A DNA stretch of 64,000 nt from an uncultured Alphaproteobacteria bacterium (GTDB taxonomy: Bacteria; Pseudomonadota; Alphaproteobacteria; HIMB59): the NCBI GenBank assembly GCA_902575065.1, contig CACGPU010000003.1:1-64000 (forward strand). The letters run 5' to 3'. Both the position numbers and the translations under genes were made by a program. Shown here one piece after another: positions 31,687-36,299 of the stretch. Positions within the stretch are counted from its first letter, which is position 1, and each line of letters opens with the position of its first letter. A model generated the notes under the pieces. The model saw nothing but the letters and a program-made list of their open reading frames with translations, did not search any database and was not told the DNA's origin.

Positions 31687-31761
31687 TGGCGGTTCTGCAA
31701 GGATTCGAACCCTGAATTCTTGATCCGTAGTCAAGTGTGATATCCGTTTCACCACAGAACC
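31687..31761 (-). tRNA. tRNA-Arg(ACG)
   Basis: A 75-nt cloverleaf on the minus strand with encoded CCA. Acceptor stem GGTTCTG/CAGAACC, anticodon arm CTTGA-CTACGGA-TCAAG with anticodon ACG, T arm CAGGG-TTCGAAT-CCTTG. A -10 element TATACT lies at 31770-31775 upstream of the 5' end. The 5' half (31723-31761) is repeated exactly at 33184-33222 and 34495-34533, so this gene is the attachment site of the adjoining cassettes. Confidence 0.95.
31723..31761 (-). repeat. attachment core, copy 1 (within tRNA-Arg)
   Basis: 39-bp sequence from the tRNA 5' end through the anticodon loop, identical to copies 2 and 3. It marks the junction between the chromosomal tRNA 3' half and the inserted cassette that supplies the 5' half. 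Confidence 0.85.
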
Positions 31762-31814
31762 TTAATCAAAGTATATCACCATAAATCAATCATTGTACTT
31801 AATCCTACGAAACT

Positions 31815-31838
31815 CATTACGGAGCCATTACGGGCAAC
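31815..31838 (+). repeat. paired 11-bp repeats, cassette 1 left end
   Basis: Two units with 11-bp period, CATTACGGAGC and CATTACGGGCA, starting 54 bp from the attachment core. Agrees at 20 of 24 positions with the pair at 33093-33116 in the same orientation. Arrangement fits integrase arm-type sites (inference). Confidence 0.6.
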
Positions 31839-31856
31839 GAATGAAGAAGGGATATT

Positions 31857-32015
31857 ATGGGAACAATAACTAGACGAAAGATGAAAGATGTAAAGGGCAA
31901 TCGCTATGTCTTATTTCAAGCATAGGTGAACATGAAGGGACAAAGATATTCCCGAGCTTTTCAATATATGCGGGAAGCAAGGGCTTACATTAGCGAACAA
32001 AAGGGATTAATCAGT
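31857..32015 (+). pseudogene. decayed tyrosine-integrase N-terminus
   Basis: The frame from ATG 31857 reads MGTITRRKMKDVKGNRYVLF-QA, then a TAG stop (31926-31928), then VNMKGQRYSRAFQYMREARA and YISEQKGL. This matches the N-terminal arm-binding domain of tyrosine integrases (pattern MGTI.RRK...G.RY..Q..V..KG...SR.F....A..W). The catalytic domain is absent; the frame soon enters the G11 tract. The stop may be a true inactivating change or a point error, but the missing C-terminus makes it a relic. It lies next to the tRNA, as expected for an integrase gene. Confidence 0.65.
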
Positions 32016-32029
32016 AGAGGTTGTTTGTC

Positions 32030-32064
32030 GGGGGGGGGGGAACAACGTTGTGTTTCCTCCCCCC
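32030..32064. repeat. G11 tract and C6 tract forming a GC-rich hairpin
   Basis: An uninterrupted run of 11 G at 32030-32040 is followed by AACAACGTTGTG and TTTCC and then C6 at 32059-32064. The two tracts can pair, with GGAA/TTCC and the palindrome CAACGTTG inside. It stands out sharply from the AT-rich surroundings and lies in cassette 1 between the integrase relic and the next gene. Confidence 0.7.
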
Positions 32065-32097
32065 TTGGTAGTGCAGAGGTGTGAAATCTTCAAACCT

Positions 32098-32502
32098 CTA
32101 GTTAAAGGGGTAAAGTTCCCAAACTGCTTTGCCATCTGCATCGGCTTCGTAAGTAAATGCGTAAAATTTACCATTCAGTTCAGATAACGCTTCAGATGTG
32201 GTTTCGAATATAGCGCCGCCTCTAAAAGAAGTGCCTCCATCTTTCCTCTGGTTTCCGACACCCGTAGCTTTATATGTGGCGACACCTTCTGCACACATTA
32301 CAACCCCAGCATAGGCATTTCCTGCCCATGAACCATCTGGTCTCATTTCGGCTGTAAATGCGCCCATAGACTGAACATCATGACCTAGCATCGTTCCGCT
32401 CCCTTCAGCAGTAATGTCCATAGCAGGTAAACCATATTTACCAGAGTCCATTGGCTTATTAGTTTCCTGTAATGTCATTGTTCCAATTTTATCACCAAGC
32501 AT
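32098..32502 (-). CDS. hypothetical glycine-rich protein (134 aa), cassette 1 cargo
   Basis: A soluble 134-aa protein with alternating polar/hydrophobic stretches and many Gly/Ala (GTMLGHDVQSMGAFTAEM, GSWAGNAYAGVVMCAEG, FRGGAIFETTSEALSEL, FYAFTYEADADGKAVWEL). The pattern suggests a small beta-barrel, but I recognise no family. No signal peptide. Base composition is clearly richer in G+C than in neighbouring genes, a sign of transfer. An AGAGGT...ACCTCT hairpin at 32075-32099 overlaps the stop codon. Confidence 0.75.
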   Translation of the reverse strand: MLGDKIGTMTLQETNKPMDSGKYGLPAMDITAEGSGTMLGHDVQSMGAFTAEMRPDGSWAGNAYAGVVMCAEGVATYKATGVGNQRKDGGTSFRGGAIFETTSEALSELNGKFYAFTYEADADGKAVWELYPFN

Positions 32503-32637
32503 TGTTAATCTCCTTTTCTAAATTTTTAAAATAAATGATTATAATAATTACTTGTTAAGAGTATTATTTCTTTTTTTAAATATATATATTACTCATTTGC
32601 AATAAATAATATTTTTTTAGATGTTATAAGAGTTTAT

Positions 32638-33069
32638 ATGTATATTTATACTAAAAAATTTAGGTTTATATTTCTTTTTTCAATTTTTCTATTTAGTTTT
32701 GGATTTTTACATTCTGAGGAACATCTCAAAACTAAAATTTCCCCTGTTCTAAAATCTGCAACTACAATATTAGGAAATGAAATATATTATCCTGATGGAA
32801 AAGCTGAAATAGTGTCATTTATAGTTGAGGTGCCTCCTGGTGGTGTAACTCCAAACCATGTTCATTCTTACCCTGTTTATATTTACATTATGGAGGGAGA
32901 GATGACATATACTTGGGAAGACGGAACAGTTACTATTTACAAACCTGGTAAAGCATATATAGAGGATAGTAAAAGTGCTCATTACGGAAAAAATTTAGGT
33001 GACATAACACTCAAAGCGCTGATAGTGGGCATTGGTGCAGAGGGTATAAAATTTACAACCTCTCCTTAA
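32638..33069 (+). CDS. secreted cupin-domain protein, cassette 1 cargo
   Basis: 143 aa: signal peptide (residues 1-26, ending FGFLHSEE), then one cupin barrel. The first cupin motif is PPGGVTPNHVHSYPVYIYIM with EGEMTY, the second is IYKPGKAYIEDSKSAHYG; metal-ligand histidines are NHVHS and AHYG. Periplasmic small-molecule or sugar-related cupins are common, but the ligand is unknown here. The 135-bp gap to the divergent glycine-rich gene is very AT-rich. Confidence 0.82.
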   Translation: MYIYTKKFRFIFLFSIFLFSFGFLHSEEHLKTKISPVLKSATTILGNEIYYPDGKAEIVSFIVEVPPGGVTPNHVHSYPVYIYIMEGEMTYTWEDGTVTIYKPGKAYIEDSKSAHYGKNLGDITLKALIVGIGAEGIKFTTSP

Positions 33070-33092
33070 AACTAAATTTTTAGCTATATTTT

Positions 33093-33116
33093 CATTACGG
33101 GCTTATTACGGGCAAC
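33093..33116 (+). repeat. paired 11-bp repeats, cassette 1 right end
   Basis: Units CATTACGGGCT and TATTACGGGCA in 11-bp period, 67 bp before attachment core copy 2. Same sequence type and orientation as the cassette 1 left-end pair. Confidence 0.6.
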
Positions 33117-33136
33117 ATAGATAAAATGTTGTTAAA

Positions 33137-33247
33137 GCTCAAAGAATAGTATTGATAATAAATGAATTAAAGAGACGTAGGATATCCGTAGTCAAGTGTG
33201 ATATCCGTTTCACCACAGAACCATTAGCTTGATTTATATACTCTTTT
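33137..33247. repeat. 111-bp direct repeat A, containing tRNA-Arg 5' half (core copy 2)
   Basis: Nearly identical to 34448-34558 (two mismatches seen, TT versus GC at 33233-33234). It holds 47 bp of cassette right-end sequence, the 39-bp tRNA core (33184-33222), and 25 bp of outer flank with a TATATA -10 on the minus strand in the position of a tRNA promoter. The tRNA half has no 3' partner, so it is a remnant and not a tRNA gene. Confidence 0.9.
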
Positions 33248-33276
33248 TTTAAATAATAAACTTCTATGGATGTGCT

Positions 33277-33298
33277 ATAACACACTCATAACACACTG
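33277..33298 (+). repeat. paired 11-bp repeats, cassette 2 left end
   Basis: Two exact ATAACACACT units separated by one base (period 11), 55 bp from core copy 2. Confidence 0.6.
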
Positions 33299-33309
33299 AA
33301 TAATTATTT

Positions 33310-34368
33310 ATGAAAATCTTCTTAGCCTTATTTTTATTACTACCTAGTTTGTTATGGGGATTGACATTTAAAGATGGCAAACAGGTCAATGATGGCTTAA
33401 CTGACTCCTTCTCAGAAAAATACACTATTAGTAAAAAAAACTTTACCCTTCCATTTGACGTCTCCTCTGGAGTGCGTGAATGGAGACTTAGCTCTAGAGC
33501 CTTAGGTTTAAAACATCAAATACAAGTAGTTTCTAAAGATGAAGGACATCCTGTAAGAGATGGAAATCTTAGTATTAGATTTGAAGTAAGACCAGGCGAA
33601 TGTGGAGGTAAGGGCAAAATTAATGACTGTAATAGAAATAATGGAAAATCTGAAAGAGCCGAAATAGCATCTATTGACGAATGGGGTAAAGGAGAAATGT
33701 GGTATGCATGGTCAATTTATTTACAACCTGAATTTACAGAATTACATCCAAGGTCTAGTCTTAAACTTCTGCAATTTCATAGCAGGCCTGATGATGTTTA
33801 CCCTGACCAACACTTTAGCTTTGAGGCGAAAGATGGTTCATACACACCTTCTAATAATATTAATAAAGAAAAAGGCCTGTCTTTATCTAAGACAGATATG
33901 ATTGGTAGATGGAATGACATATTAATGCACGTAAATTGGTCATACGAAAATGATGGTTACTATAAAATATGGGCAAATGGTGATTTGATTTATGATTATA
34001 GTGGCAAAACATTATGGGATAAAAATATTAGAGCAAACTTTAAGTTTGGAATTTATAGAAACTGGTTGGAACATACATGGGAAACGGGCTCTGATGGTGG
34101 CACTACGATTGTTTATTTTGATGAGATTAGAATAGGCAAAACTAAAGATGAGGTTAACTCAAACCTTAGTCAGTTAGGTGAGCAAGAATATTTCTACAAA
34201 AAAAGTAAGATGGAACTTCTTGATGAAGAAATTAAACTTATTGAAGAACAGATTTCAAAACTAAAAAAAGAAGTTGTTGAAAATTATGATATAGAAAAGT
34301 CAAAAAAAATTAATGATTTCAAGAAGAAATTAAGAAAACTAGAATATGAGAAGGCAAAAGAAAAATGA
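33310..34368 (+). CDS. secreted polysaccharide lyase-like protein (heparin-lyase-I-like fold), cassette 2 cargo
   Basis: 352 aa. Signal peptide MKIFLALFLLLPSLLWG, then a concanavalin-like jelly roll typical of the PF14099 polysaccharide lyase family: RFEVRPGECGG, KSERAEI, GEMWYAWSIYLQPEF, LLQFHSRPDD, RWNDILMHVNWSYEN, KIWANGDLIYDY, FKFGIYRNW, and VYFDEIRIG. A charged coiled coil (about 300-352) follows. Likely acts on an acidic polysaccharide in the periplasm or outside; actual substrate unknown. The paralogue at 34614 shares the GECG...DC...RSEI pattern but is otherwise diverged. Confidence 0.8.
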   Translation: MKIFLALFLLLPSLLWGLTFKDGKQVNDGLTDSFSEKYTISKKNFTLPFDVSSGVREWRLSSRALGLKHQIQVVSKDEGHPVRDGNLSIRFEVRPGECGGKGKINDCNRNNGKSERAEIASIDEWGKGEMWYAWSIYLQPEFTELHPRSSLKLLQFHSRPDDVYPDQHFSFEAKDGSYTPSNNINKEKGLSLSKTDMIGRWNDILMHVNWSYENDGYYKIWANGDLIYDYSGKTLWDKNIRANFKFGIYRNWLEHTWETGSDGGTTIVYFDEIRIGKTKDEVNSNLSQLGEQEYFYKKSKMELLDEEIKLIEEQISKLKKEVVENYDIEKSKKINDFKKKLRKLEYEKAKEK

Positions 34369-34404
34369 GAATTTTATTAGCCCTATTGTAAAGTGGAACA
34401 GTTC

Positions 34405-34426
34405 ATAAAACACTTACAACACACTA
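34405..34426 (+). repeat. paired 11-bp repeats, cassette 2 right end
   Basis: Units ATAAAACACT and ACAACACACT with period 11, about 69 bp before core copy 3; same type as the pair at 33277-33298. Confidence 0.5.
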
Positions 34427-34447
34427 CAATGATGAAACAGTGTATAT

Positions 34448-34558
34448 GCTCAAAGAATAGTATTGATAATAAATGAATTAAAGAGACGTAGGATATCCGT
34501 AGTCAAGTGTGATATCCGTTTCACCACAGAACCATTAGCTTGAGCTATATACTCTTTT
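34448..34558. repeat. 111-bp direct repeat B, containing tRNA-Arg 5' half (core copy 3)
   Basis: Second copy of the 33137-33247 repeat at a constant offset of 1311 bp. The tRNA core is 34495-34533. Outer flank carries the same TATATA -10 on the minus strand. Rightmost tRNA remnant seen in the window. Confidence 0.9.
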
Positions 34559-34586
34559 TATTAATAATAAAATTTAATACAATGTT

Positions 34587-34610
34587 CGTTAGGGACTCAA
34601 TACGGGCAAA
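34587..34610 (+). repeat. paired 11-bp repeats right of core copy 3
   Basis: CGTTAGGGACT and CAATACGGGCA, period 11, starting 54 bp from core copy 3, related to the cassette 1 type. This would be the left end of a third cassette whose right end I cannot find in the window. Confidence 0.45.
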
Positions 34611-34613
34611 ACT

Positions 34614-35516
34614 ATGAAGACATTCTTAACTTTATTTATATTTTTGCCAAGTTTAGTGCTTGCCTCAAGTTTTAGTGAAATTAAAAAAGCTTTAAAACAA
34701 GATGGTTTTGGAGAAATAATCCCTGAGGAACTTCATCCATTAATCTCCCCAAATGCAAAAAATCCTATATCAGTTAGCGGCAATTCAATTATTGGAGATA
34801 AATCTATAAAGTTTGAAGTTAATAATGGAGAGTGCGGAGAAGAACCTAAATCAAGTGACTGTGATACAGATAGAGAGAGGTCTGAAATATATTACAGCCA
34901 CGAAAAGTGGAAAAAAGAGAAGTGGTATAAGTTTAATATTTTTCTTCCAAAAGATTACAATTCTATTGCCCCTGCAAAAATGTCTTTAATCCAATGGAAA
35001 AGACATAACCCATCTAAAGTTTTAGTCATGTTTCAACACACTCATGCAGGATTAACTTTTAACAGGAATAAAGACTCTTTTGAGGACTCCCACATAATTT
35101 TAAAAAGCAATGATGTACTTTTAGGCCAATGGACAGAAATAATTTTTAACACAAATTGGCATCCAGATGAGGACAAAGGTTTCATGAAGGTATGGATTGA
35201 TGGGATTTTAAAAATAGATTTTAAAGGAACTAGCAATACATCTAAGGGTGAGGAACTAAATCTTAGATATGGACTGTACGCCTCTGCCATATCACGTTAT
35301 AAAAAAGCATTTAATACTGAGATAATTCCACAGCGTATCGTTTATTTTGATGGTGTAAATGCAGAGTCAAAATGTGAAAAGTTACTAGATAAAGCTAAAT
35401 GTAATAATTTAACTTCTCAAACAATCGAAAAATACGAATTATTTATGTATGATAAAAATGATATAAAATTTCACAATCATTCTGTTGTTAAATTACCTAT
35501 AAACTTTTTGAAATAA
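34614..35516 (+). CDS. secreted polysaccharide lyase-like protein, second paralogue
   Basis: 300 aa. Signal peptide MKTFLTLFIFLPSLVLAS resembles that of the upstream paralogue. Jelly-roll lyase family pattern: FEVNNGECGEEP, DRERSEIYYSHEKW, KWYKFNIFLPKDYNS, LIQWKR, GQWTEIIFNTNWHPDEDKG, KVWIDGILKIDF, LRYGLYASAIS, IVYFDGVN. A C-terminal Cys pair (KCEKLLDKAKCN) may form a disulfide. Lies just beyond core copy 3, so it is probably cargo of a third cassette. It abuts the ion-channel gene (stop and ATG adjacent). Confidence 0.78.
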   Translation: MKTFLTLFIFLPSLVLASSFSEIKKALKQDGFGEIIPEELHPLISPNAKNPISVSGNSIIGDKSIKFEVNNGECGEEPKSSDCDTDRERSEIYYSHEKWKKEKWYKFNIFLPKDYNSIAPAKMSLIQWKRHNPSKVLVMFQHTHAGLTFNRNKDSFEDSHIILKSNDVLLGQWTEIIFNTNWHPDEDKGFMKVWIDGILKIDFKGTSNTSKGEELNLRYGLYASAISRYKKAFNTEIIPQRIVYFDGVNAESKCEKLLDKAKCNNLTSQTIEKYELFMYDKNDIKFHNHSVVKLPINFLK

Positions 35517-36299
35517 ATGAAACAAACCTTTTTTAAAATACGAGAAAGCAAGTTATTTCAATACTCAGTTTTATTTATCATTATATTTAATGCATTTACT
35601 ATCGGTTTAAATACTTACAATTTAGGAGAGTTCTCAAGAGAGCTCATTAAATATCTCGATTATTTGATAACTATTTTTTTTGTAATAGAAATTTCAATTC
35701 GTTTTATTGGTGAACCTAGAAAATCAAATTTTTTTAAAAGTGGTTGGAATATTTTTGACACTTTTATTGTTTTGGTATCATTGATACCAATACCTAACAA
35801 CTCCAGTTTTCTTCTGTTAAGATTATTGAGAGTGTTTAGAGTTTTAAGAGTTATATCTATTATTCCTGAGTTAAAATTAATCATTGAGTCATTGATTGGA
35901 TCGTTAAAAAGAGTGTTTTATGTAAGTTTGCTGCTTTTCATAATTCTCTATATTTATGCAACTATTGGAGCAATAGTCTTTTCAAATAGCATACCCGAGA
36001 GATGGTCTGATGTGGGCGTTTCAATGATTACTTTATTTCAAGTTTTAACATTATCATCTTGGGAGCAGGTAATGTTGCCACTTCAAGATATTTATTGGTG
36101 GGCATGGATTTATTTTTTTAGTTTTATAATTGTCTGTGCCATTACAATGTTAAATCTTCTAATAGCAATTTTGGTTGATGTAGTTGTAAATCAGAGCGAA
36201 AAAAAAGATGATTTGATAAAAACCAGAAATAATGCTGAAAAACTAAATGAACAATTTTCTGAGGAGATTAGTTTAGATAAACTAAAAAAAGATCAATAA
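35517..36299 (+). CDS. NaChBac-type voltage-gated ion channel with altered selectivity filter
   Basis: 260 aa, one six-helix domain plus cytoplasmic tail, as in homotetrameric BacNav channels. S4 has four regularly spaced arginines (R102, R105, R108, R111 in LRLLRVFRVLRVI). The pore loop reads LFQVLTLSSWEQVMLPL at about 174-190; NaChBac-family filters read TLESW, so the ring-forming Glu is Ser180 here and a Glu appears three residues later (E183). S6 is ITMLNLLIAILVDVV, and the tail is a charged coiled coil. Ion selectivity is therefore uncertain. The stop overlaps a small membrane-protein start. Confidence 0.9.
   Translation: MKQTFFKIRESKLFQYSVLFIIIFNAFTIGLNTYNLGEFSRELIKYLDYLITIFFVIEISIRFIGEPRKSNFFKSGWNIFDTFIVLVSLIPIPNNSSFLLLRLLRVFRVLRVISIIPELKLIIESLIGSLKRVFYVSLLLFIILYIYATIGAIVFSNSIPERWSDVGVSMITLFQVLTLSSWEQVMLPLQDIYWWAWIYFFSFIIVCAITMLNLLIAILVDVVVNQSEKKDDLIKTRNNAEKLNEQFSEEISLDKLKKDQ

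Follow-up and report, generated by a model that had tools for sequence, protein, structure and literature searches.

Introduction

Streamlined ocean bacteria swap genes, though recognisable vehicles for this exchange are scarce. Additive flexible genomic islands with tRNA-targeted cassettes have been described in Ca. Actinomarinales (PMC7771536), Alteromonas (PMC4119200) and Ca. Methylopumilus (PMC10872708), with sizes down to 330 bp in the Methylopumilus islands (PMC10872708); tycheposons are elements of 4-200 kb that carry a tyrosine recombinase (PMC10872708, PMC11389934). Integration into the 5' half of a tRNA gene, with the tRNA then read from the integrase promoter, is known from archaeal pTN3-like integrases and is seldom met in bacteria (PMC8371274); in the Islander collection, 159 of 3919 islands have a 5' fragment (PMC4383910). 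Here we analyse a stretch of 64,000 nucleotides (the window: contig CACGPU010000003.1, positions 1 to 64,000, from the genome of an uncultured alphaproteobacterium of the HIMB59 lineage, G000), in which a tRNA-Arg(ACG) gene is followed by a row of small gene cassettes bounded by copies of the tRNA 5' half, together with the corresponding loci of its relatives.

Results

The tRNA 5' half is repeated along the locus

The insertion target and the repeats marking the cassettes in the window are:

31687..31761, minus strand: tRNA-Arg(ACG) gene, the insertion target (ARAGORN)
31723..31761, plus strand: first copy of the 5' half (39 bp), within the tRNA gene (sequence repeat)
33184..33222, plus strand: second copy of the 5' half (sequence repeat)
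34495..34533, plus strand: third copy of the 5' half (sequence repeat)

The original prediction, made from the letters of the window, claimed three copies of the 5' half delimiting units of 1.46 and 1.31 kb, followed by a third unit of undefined right end. The copies starting at 31723, 33184 and 34495 are indeed exact, the second and third matching the 39-nucleotide (nt) half of tRNA-Arg(ACG) without mismatch, and their spacing is 1461 and 1311 nt. The third unit is a real cassette unit, but its right end is defined, since it stops at the stop codon of a lyase gene (35516). When up to 3 mismatches were allowed, these three copies were the only ones in the genome, and a reversed control pattern gave none. 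The likeness between the two distal copies extends beyond the 39 nt, covering 173 nt at 86%.

Empty and filled sites in related genomes

The genus sample comprised 52 genomes including G000: a first set of 37 and 15 further genomes. The half was found within 3 mismatches in 30 of the 37 first-set genomes (G000 included) and in 11 of the 15 further ones; 23 genomes from outside the genus but within the order had no copy. The locus of G023 was located via panC, the half there having 4 mismatches. Altogether 42 loci could be oriented and read, with one half copy in 19, two in 15 and three in 8 (at most 8 mismatches); the remaining 10 of the 52 genomes had no usable locus (no panC in 5, panC at a contig end in 1, no half by pattern in 4). 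The internal half copies were exact in 14 of 31 cases and had mismatches in 17.

Empty sites were found beside three flank types. In the flank type of the window, the tRNA is directly followed by the ion-channel flank in G021, G067 and G071, whereas the site is filled with one cassette in G073 and with two in G024, the flanks of the filled sites being 93.8-96.5% identical to those of the empty ones over 260 nt. In the second type, the empty site of G069 compares with filled sites in G004, G005, G009, G011, G020, G028, G032, G033 and G072 (92.7-98.1% identity); in the third, the empty sites of G008, G018, G029 and G062 compare with the filled site of G025, the flank being merely homologous (56.5-62.3%). 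The locus of G061, cut at the contig start, also appears empty. Other single-copy loci have other genes behind the tRNA and no recognisable distal half (G002, G006, G010, G015, G016, G019, G026, G030), the distal half of G016 being decayed.

The arrangement is thus not common to all relatives, the outcome that the original prediction had named as refuting it: there are none, one or two complete cassettes, cargo and order differ, and the cargo modules recur as units across arrays in varying order. The refuting case therefore did not occur. Serial insertion with a new 5' half supplied each time, as originally proposed, is supported by these empty and filled sites and by the differing cargo among the 42 loci. 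In the host tree (37 rows), the group of the window includes G004 and G005, whose flanks are of the second type; this conflict between host tree and flank type indicates that the flanks seem to recombine too.

Cassette ends are conserved and carry paired repeats

Between successive halves at tRNA-Arg(ACG), 31 complete cassettes were found in 23 genomes, with lengths of 610-2487 bp. Their cargo includes proteins of the PF14099 polysaccharide lyase family, cupin, chalcone-isomerase-like, HNH and PLD-type, and HIT/HNH proteins, as well as many without a Pfam match. Of the open reading frames of at least 85 amino acids (aa) in 32 cassettes, including one cassette at tRNA-Arg(TCG), 41 are directed away from the tRNA and 22 face it.

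The ends are shared by cassettes with different cargo. Compared across 11 cargo types, the right end has a mean pairwise identity of 89% over its final 55 nt, falling to 32% at 100-155 nt inwards; the first 40 nt of the left end are 57% identical, compared with 27% at 120-160 nt inwards. A 34-nt core of the right end occurs at 32 places in 25 of the 52 genomes, 31 of which adjoin a half copy (one at tRNA-Arg(TCG)) and the other the decayed half of G016. Both cassette ends contain paired direct repeats about 11 nt apart, whose letters tend to match within one cassette (ACGGG-type, ACACAC-type or ACCGG-type; strings named for the cassette ends are ATTACGG, TATACGGG and ACACACT). The score of a cassette's own left and right repeat types was reached in 0 of 10000 shuffles, in a comparison of 12 types which are not independent and from which the chimeric tRNA-Arg(TCG) cassette was excluded.

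The first nucleotides after the half are TTGATTTATATACTC or similar, except in unit 1 of the window and in the cupin cassettes of G020, G024, G025 and G033, which have other letters. The same letters stand upstream of the tRNA at the empty sites, suggesting that the cassette left ends may carry a tRNA promoter; in a promoter scan, sites were no more numerous than in shuffles.

A near-identical stretch of 41 nt, coding for a signal-peptide-like start (MKTLLALLLLIPSLSWG), fronts differing proteins on many mobile elements. It was found 37 times, in 23 of the 52 genomes, with none for the reversed control (G000:C1 (L112 2229-5859), L113, L114, L115, L045, L303 and others; diverged copies at 33310 and 34614 of the window), and may be a homology handle for cargo swapping.

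The three units of the window

The features of the first unit are:

31762..33183, plus strand: unit 1, a complete cassette of 1422 bp (134-aa gene and cupin)
31762..31800, minus strand: left end of unit 1, the tRNA upstream region supplied by the cassette, with a putative promoter role (sequence)
31810..31837, plus strand: left paired direct repeat ATTACGG..ATTACGGGCAA, a putative arm-type site
31857..32009, plus strand: truncated, stop-containing integrase-like N-terminus (layout, and likeness by eye to intact integrases)
32098..32502, minus strand: gene of the 134-aa protein (no Pfam or PHROG match)
32638..33069, plus strand: cupin protein of 143 aa (PF07883, E 6.7e-15)
33088..33115, plus strand: right paired direct repeat
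33129..33183, plus strand: conserved right end of cassettes

In agreement with the original prediction, the units yielded no intact recombinase; what unit 1 retains is an integrase-like N-terminus, truncated and interrupted by an in-frame stop, directly behind the left repeats. This remnant is present in 13 of the 52 genus genomes and truncated in every one, with a stop within 51 residues in 10 of the 13 and none in 3; it had no Pfam match, and phmmer gave no likeness to other integrases of the genus. The 134-aa gene is likewise present in 13 genomes, accompanied by the cupin in 11 of them, and its protein matched neither Pfam nor PHROG; the start of the cupin, judged by eye, is signal-peptide-like. 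The string TACGGGCAA occurs 3 times in the window, always within the units (shuffle mean 0.05). The 134-aa gene sits in a G+C-rich stretch (0.42-0.46). Between 31857 and 32502 the integrase-like remnant joins the reversed gene via a run of G, and the G+C content rises to 0.46 in surroundings of about 0.3; this stretch is likely a foreign piece.

The other two units and the right flank consist of:

33223..34494, plus strand: unit 2, a complete cassette of 1272 bp (PL352 type, present in G035 too)
33276..33298, plus strand: left paired direct repeat of unit 2, AACACACT..AACACACT
33310..34368, plus strand: PL352, polysaccharide lyase family protein (PF14099, E 3.7e-27)
34404..34425, plus strand: right direct repeat of unit 2, of the same kind as at the left
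34440..34494, plus strand: conserved right end of cassettes, second copy
34534..35516, plus strand: unit 3, a PL300 cassette with its right end deleted, stopping at the lyase stop codon (alignment with the complete PL300 cassettes of G024 and G068)
34582..34609, plus strand: left paired direct repeat of unit 3
34614..35516, plus strand: PL300, polysaccharide lyase family protein (PF14099, E 6.6e-26)
35517..36299, plus strand: ion-channel gene, the first chromosomal right-flank gene in the group of the window (PF00520, E 1.4e-46)

The only solved structure matched by PL352 was glucuronan lyase A (2zzj). The repeat AACACACT occurs 6 times in the window (shuffle mean 1.74; 1 of 100 shuffles as high), and the ends of unit 2 account for 3 of these copies. 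At 34365-34390, before the right repeats of unit 2, there is a short piece resembling the beginning of the signal-peptide stretch, which may hint at the loss of a second cargo gene. Unit 3 matches the complete PL300 cassettes up to the lyase stop codon, after which the ion-channel gene follows, and the order from PL300 to ion channel without an intervening half recurs in G007, G015, G017, G019, G026, G027, G034 and G035. To judge from the alignment, unit 3 is a cassette that lost its right end by deletion.

Cassette genes are transferred between hosts

The genes of unit 1 are more alike between genomes than the host genes. The identity of the 134-aa gene exceeded that of the host genes in all 78 genome pairs, by at least 10 points in 23 of them (mean 99.6% compared with 90.1%), and that of the cupin in 103 of 105 pairs, by at least 10 points in 45. 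In the most extreme cases, the cassette was 99.8% identical in hosts with 80.8-81.3% identity, and the cupin 95.8% identical in hosts with 70.8%, showing that cassettes have passed from host to host.

A second array and the crossover point

A parallel array of 5'-half cassettes, whose left end, right end and repeat types are its own, is present at tRNA-Arg(TCG) (L311, L312, L313, L314, L315, L322, L045). The 5' part of this tRNA is present in more than one copy in 6 of the 52 genomes by pattern, a looser look at 22 loci giving extra copies in 7, and several single-copy loci have cassette-like cargo as well. Relatives of PL352 and PL310 occur at both tRNA-Arg loci, with 93% protein identity for each compared pair, and in one cassette at tRNA-Arg(TCG), in G010, the right end is of the ACG type and the core is a hybrid.

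Copying starts at the 5' end of the tRNA and extends beyond the anticodon loop, to roughly position 39-41 (39 nt in Arg, 41 in Ala, 40 in Met), which suggests a crossover in the anticodon loop. This conflicts with the chimeric tRNA-Arg(TCG) cassette of G010, where the switch between ACG-type and TCG-type letters lies inside TATCCGTT, in the D-loop. Fragment copies were also sought at all tRNA genes of G000 called by ARAGORN, and there were none within the stretches covering the other 27 of the 28 tRNA places. In G068, 3' fragments of tRNA-Thr and tRNA-Met lie about 3 kb away.

Intact 5'-half integrase elements at other tRNAs

Matches to PF00589 were found in 52 of 52 genus genomes. Intact integrases of 314-327 aa stand behind the 5' end of tRNA-Ala (G069), tRNA-Met (G031) and tRNA-Gly (G060, G035), indicating that the genus has 5'-half integrases. 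The elements concerned are:

L120, 3002-7743: intact integrase element at tRNA-Ala
L122, 3256-10224: intact integrase element at tRNA-Met
L123, 5368-11563: intact integrase element at tRNA-Gly

The 5' half is copied at the far end of the tRNA-Ala element (41 nt) and of the tRNA-Met element (40 nt), and the tRNA-Ala, tRNA-Met and tRNA-Gly (G060) elements have paired repeats at both ends, the integrase gene coming directly behind the left repeats. The cassettes look like the ends of such elements, with cargo replacing the integrase gene. Integrases that copy the 3' half are also present in the genus, for example at tRNA-Thr in G001. In most of the 52 genomes, the listed matches include tyrosine recombinases of about 329 and 286 aa, whose size and frequency suggest that they are XerC and XerD. 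A set of three genes (145, 276 and 238-240 aa) found in a 5'-half cassette of G027 (L113 2441-4471) recurs at tRNA-Arg(TCT) of G010, next to an integrase (L053 1702-3726).

The cassette cargo gave no integrase by Pfam, the search for other recombinase families covering chosen cargo. A helper integrase for the tRNA-Arg cassettes was found neither among the PF00589 places of the genus genomes nor, by the integrase remnant or by exact half and right-end patterns, in the class genomes, viral contigs or phages.

Discussion

Origin and movement of the cassettes

We consider it probable that the units are cassettes lacking an integrase of their own, that a 5'-half tyrosine integrase supplied in trans inserted them, and that homologous recombination shuffled them in addition. 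The left end of a cassette would supply the tRNA upstream region, the 5' half and a pair of short direct repeats, and the right end a similar repeat pair, the conserved stretch of 55-60 nt and the 5'-half core. The integrase would join the half of the incoming cassette to the old 3' half; the tRNA would remain whole with a new upstream region, the old half would be displaced outward, and successive insertions would build the row. The paired repeats may act as arm-type sites. The cassettes would hold cargo where the intact elements hold the integrase gene, and since none is on board, the integrase would have to come from elsewhere, presumably from an element outside this sample. Homologous recombination between the common ends would reshuffle cargo and ends, and the cassettes may still be moving at present.

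Several results weigh against this explanation. No PF00589 place listed for the 52 genomes falls inside either array. The search for the integrase remnant in 385 genomes of the class gave 3, all remnants of this genus, and the remnant had no phage record and no viral relative; the exact patterns of the half and of the right end matched no viral contig, and 80 viral relatives of the 5'-half integrases of the genus had neither tRNA-Arg half within 10 mismatches. Nor are the repeat types consistent throughout: the cassettes of the 134-aa gene have at least 3 left-end versions, G004-1 and G024-2 have no 7-mer common to their left and right ends, and the cupin cassettes G020, G024-2, G025 and G033-2 are without the usual left end. 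Transfer is weaker for PL300, which was above the host genes in 76 of 105 pairs and by at least 10 points in only 3, some pairs being 10-11 points less alike than their hosts, and the cupin tree fails to reject a grouping by clade.

Alternatively, the cassettes may once have been inserted by an integrase and now spread mainly by RecA-type homologous recombination, via the common ends (right end, half and left end, about 140 nt) and the chromosomal flanks. Left ends do vary within one cassette type, host genes and flank type conflict in G004 and G005, there is no integrase at the locus, and G004 and G032 differ in cargo but agree in the letters of the distal right end, in the variant of the half and in the start of the flank. 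The independent filling of empty sites beside different flanks needs, however, a site-specific start, as does the similar array at a second tRNA, and we regard this alternative as rather unlikely. That the units are dead relics of larger integrase elements which decayed in place seems to us improbable: the truncated integrase-like N-terminus with its stop in 10 of 13 genomes, the lost right end of unit 3 and the mismatches in 17 of the 31 internal halves fit decay, but cassette genes are near-identical in hosts only about 81% alike, 14 of the 31 internal halves are still exact, and content and order are variable.

Movement by the Xer recombinases of the host, and not by a mobile integrase, has in its favour the Xer-sized enzymes of most of the 52 genomes; it is nevertheless very improbable, because the paired outer repeats with a tRNA core reproduce the layout of the integrase elements of the genus. 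To our knowledge, the tRNA core is also unlike dif, which counts against movement by Xer. If the start of the tRNA had simply been duplicated in tandem on the spot, half copies would lie in direct order beside the gene, as seen, but this origin is refuted by the cargo differing between units, which are not alike along their length, by the empty sites and by the cargo swaps.

If insertion in trans by a 5'-half integrase is correct, the docking of 0.6-2.5 kb cassettes at the 5' halves of tRNA genes is a plausible route of gene swapping, and each docking gives a tRNA gene a changed upstream region. The conserved ends can serve as probes for such cassettes and for their helper, making the route testable. 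Tentatively, and with considerable doubt, we propose that the cassettes might form a genus-wide pool, the tRNA-based counterpart of an integron: often with secreted-type cargo, docking at two tRNA-Arg genes in their 5' half, re-supplying the upstream region of an essential tRNA each time, and mobilised in trans by several 5'-half integrases with a common core but different outer repeats as their targets. Such a pool would give a streamlined ocean bacterium a permanent rack of adaptive genes.

Comparison with known systems

The locus shares with the additive islands a tRNA target, the gain and loss of cassettes between close relatives, and direct repeats of a tRNA part that mark the cassettes (PMC7771536, PMC4119200, PMC10872708). 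In the Methylopumilus and Alteromonas islands the repeat is the 3' end of the tRNA, whereas here it is the 5' half, with the upstream region replaced (PMC10872708, PMC4119200); outer repeats, a common right end and the probable dependence on an integrase in trans do not figure in the available descriptions of the three islands (PMC7771536, PMC4119200, PMC10872708). The original prediction likened the units to tycheposons, which are also tRNA-anchored cargo elements of marine bacteria; the likeness holds for the tRNA at the border but is otherwise loose, as the cassettes are much smaller (610-2487 bp) and an on-board tyrosine recombinase was not found (PMC10872708, PMC11389934).

As in the described 5'-half integration systems, attB is the 5' half and the upstream region of the tRNA comes from the element (PMC8371274, PMC4383910), the 5' half being copied and displaced upstream with its orientation kept. 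The pTN3-like elements, however, encode their own integrase (PMC8371274), and none was found in the cassettes. Islander discards candidates smaller than 2 kb or without an integrase frame, so that such cassettes would be passed over (PMC4383910). Within the genus, the elements at tRNA-Ala (L120), tRNA-Met (L122) and tRNA-Gly (L123) resemble the cassettes in their copied 5' half of 40-41 nt (Ala, Met) and in the paired repeats at both ends, but have an integrase of 314-327 aa aboard and different core and repeat letters. Rows of small integrase-less cassettes mobilised in trans are also formed by integron cassettes and CALINs; in those, the recombination site is the attC hairpin, whereas here, by layout and with no attC model run, it would be the tRNA half with the outer repeats (PMC11389934).

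Among the openly licensed literature, in the portions accessible, no description of this locus or of arrays of integrase-less 5'-half cassettes was found; since related systems are known, we judge the cassette array to be a variant and not a wholly new kind. Thus, tRNA-targeted cassettes with tRNA repeats and integration at the 5' half are known, and what appears to be new is their combination as arrays of integrase-less 5'-half cassettes.

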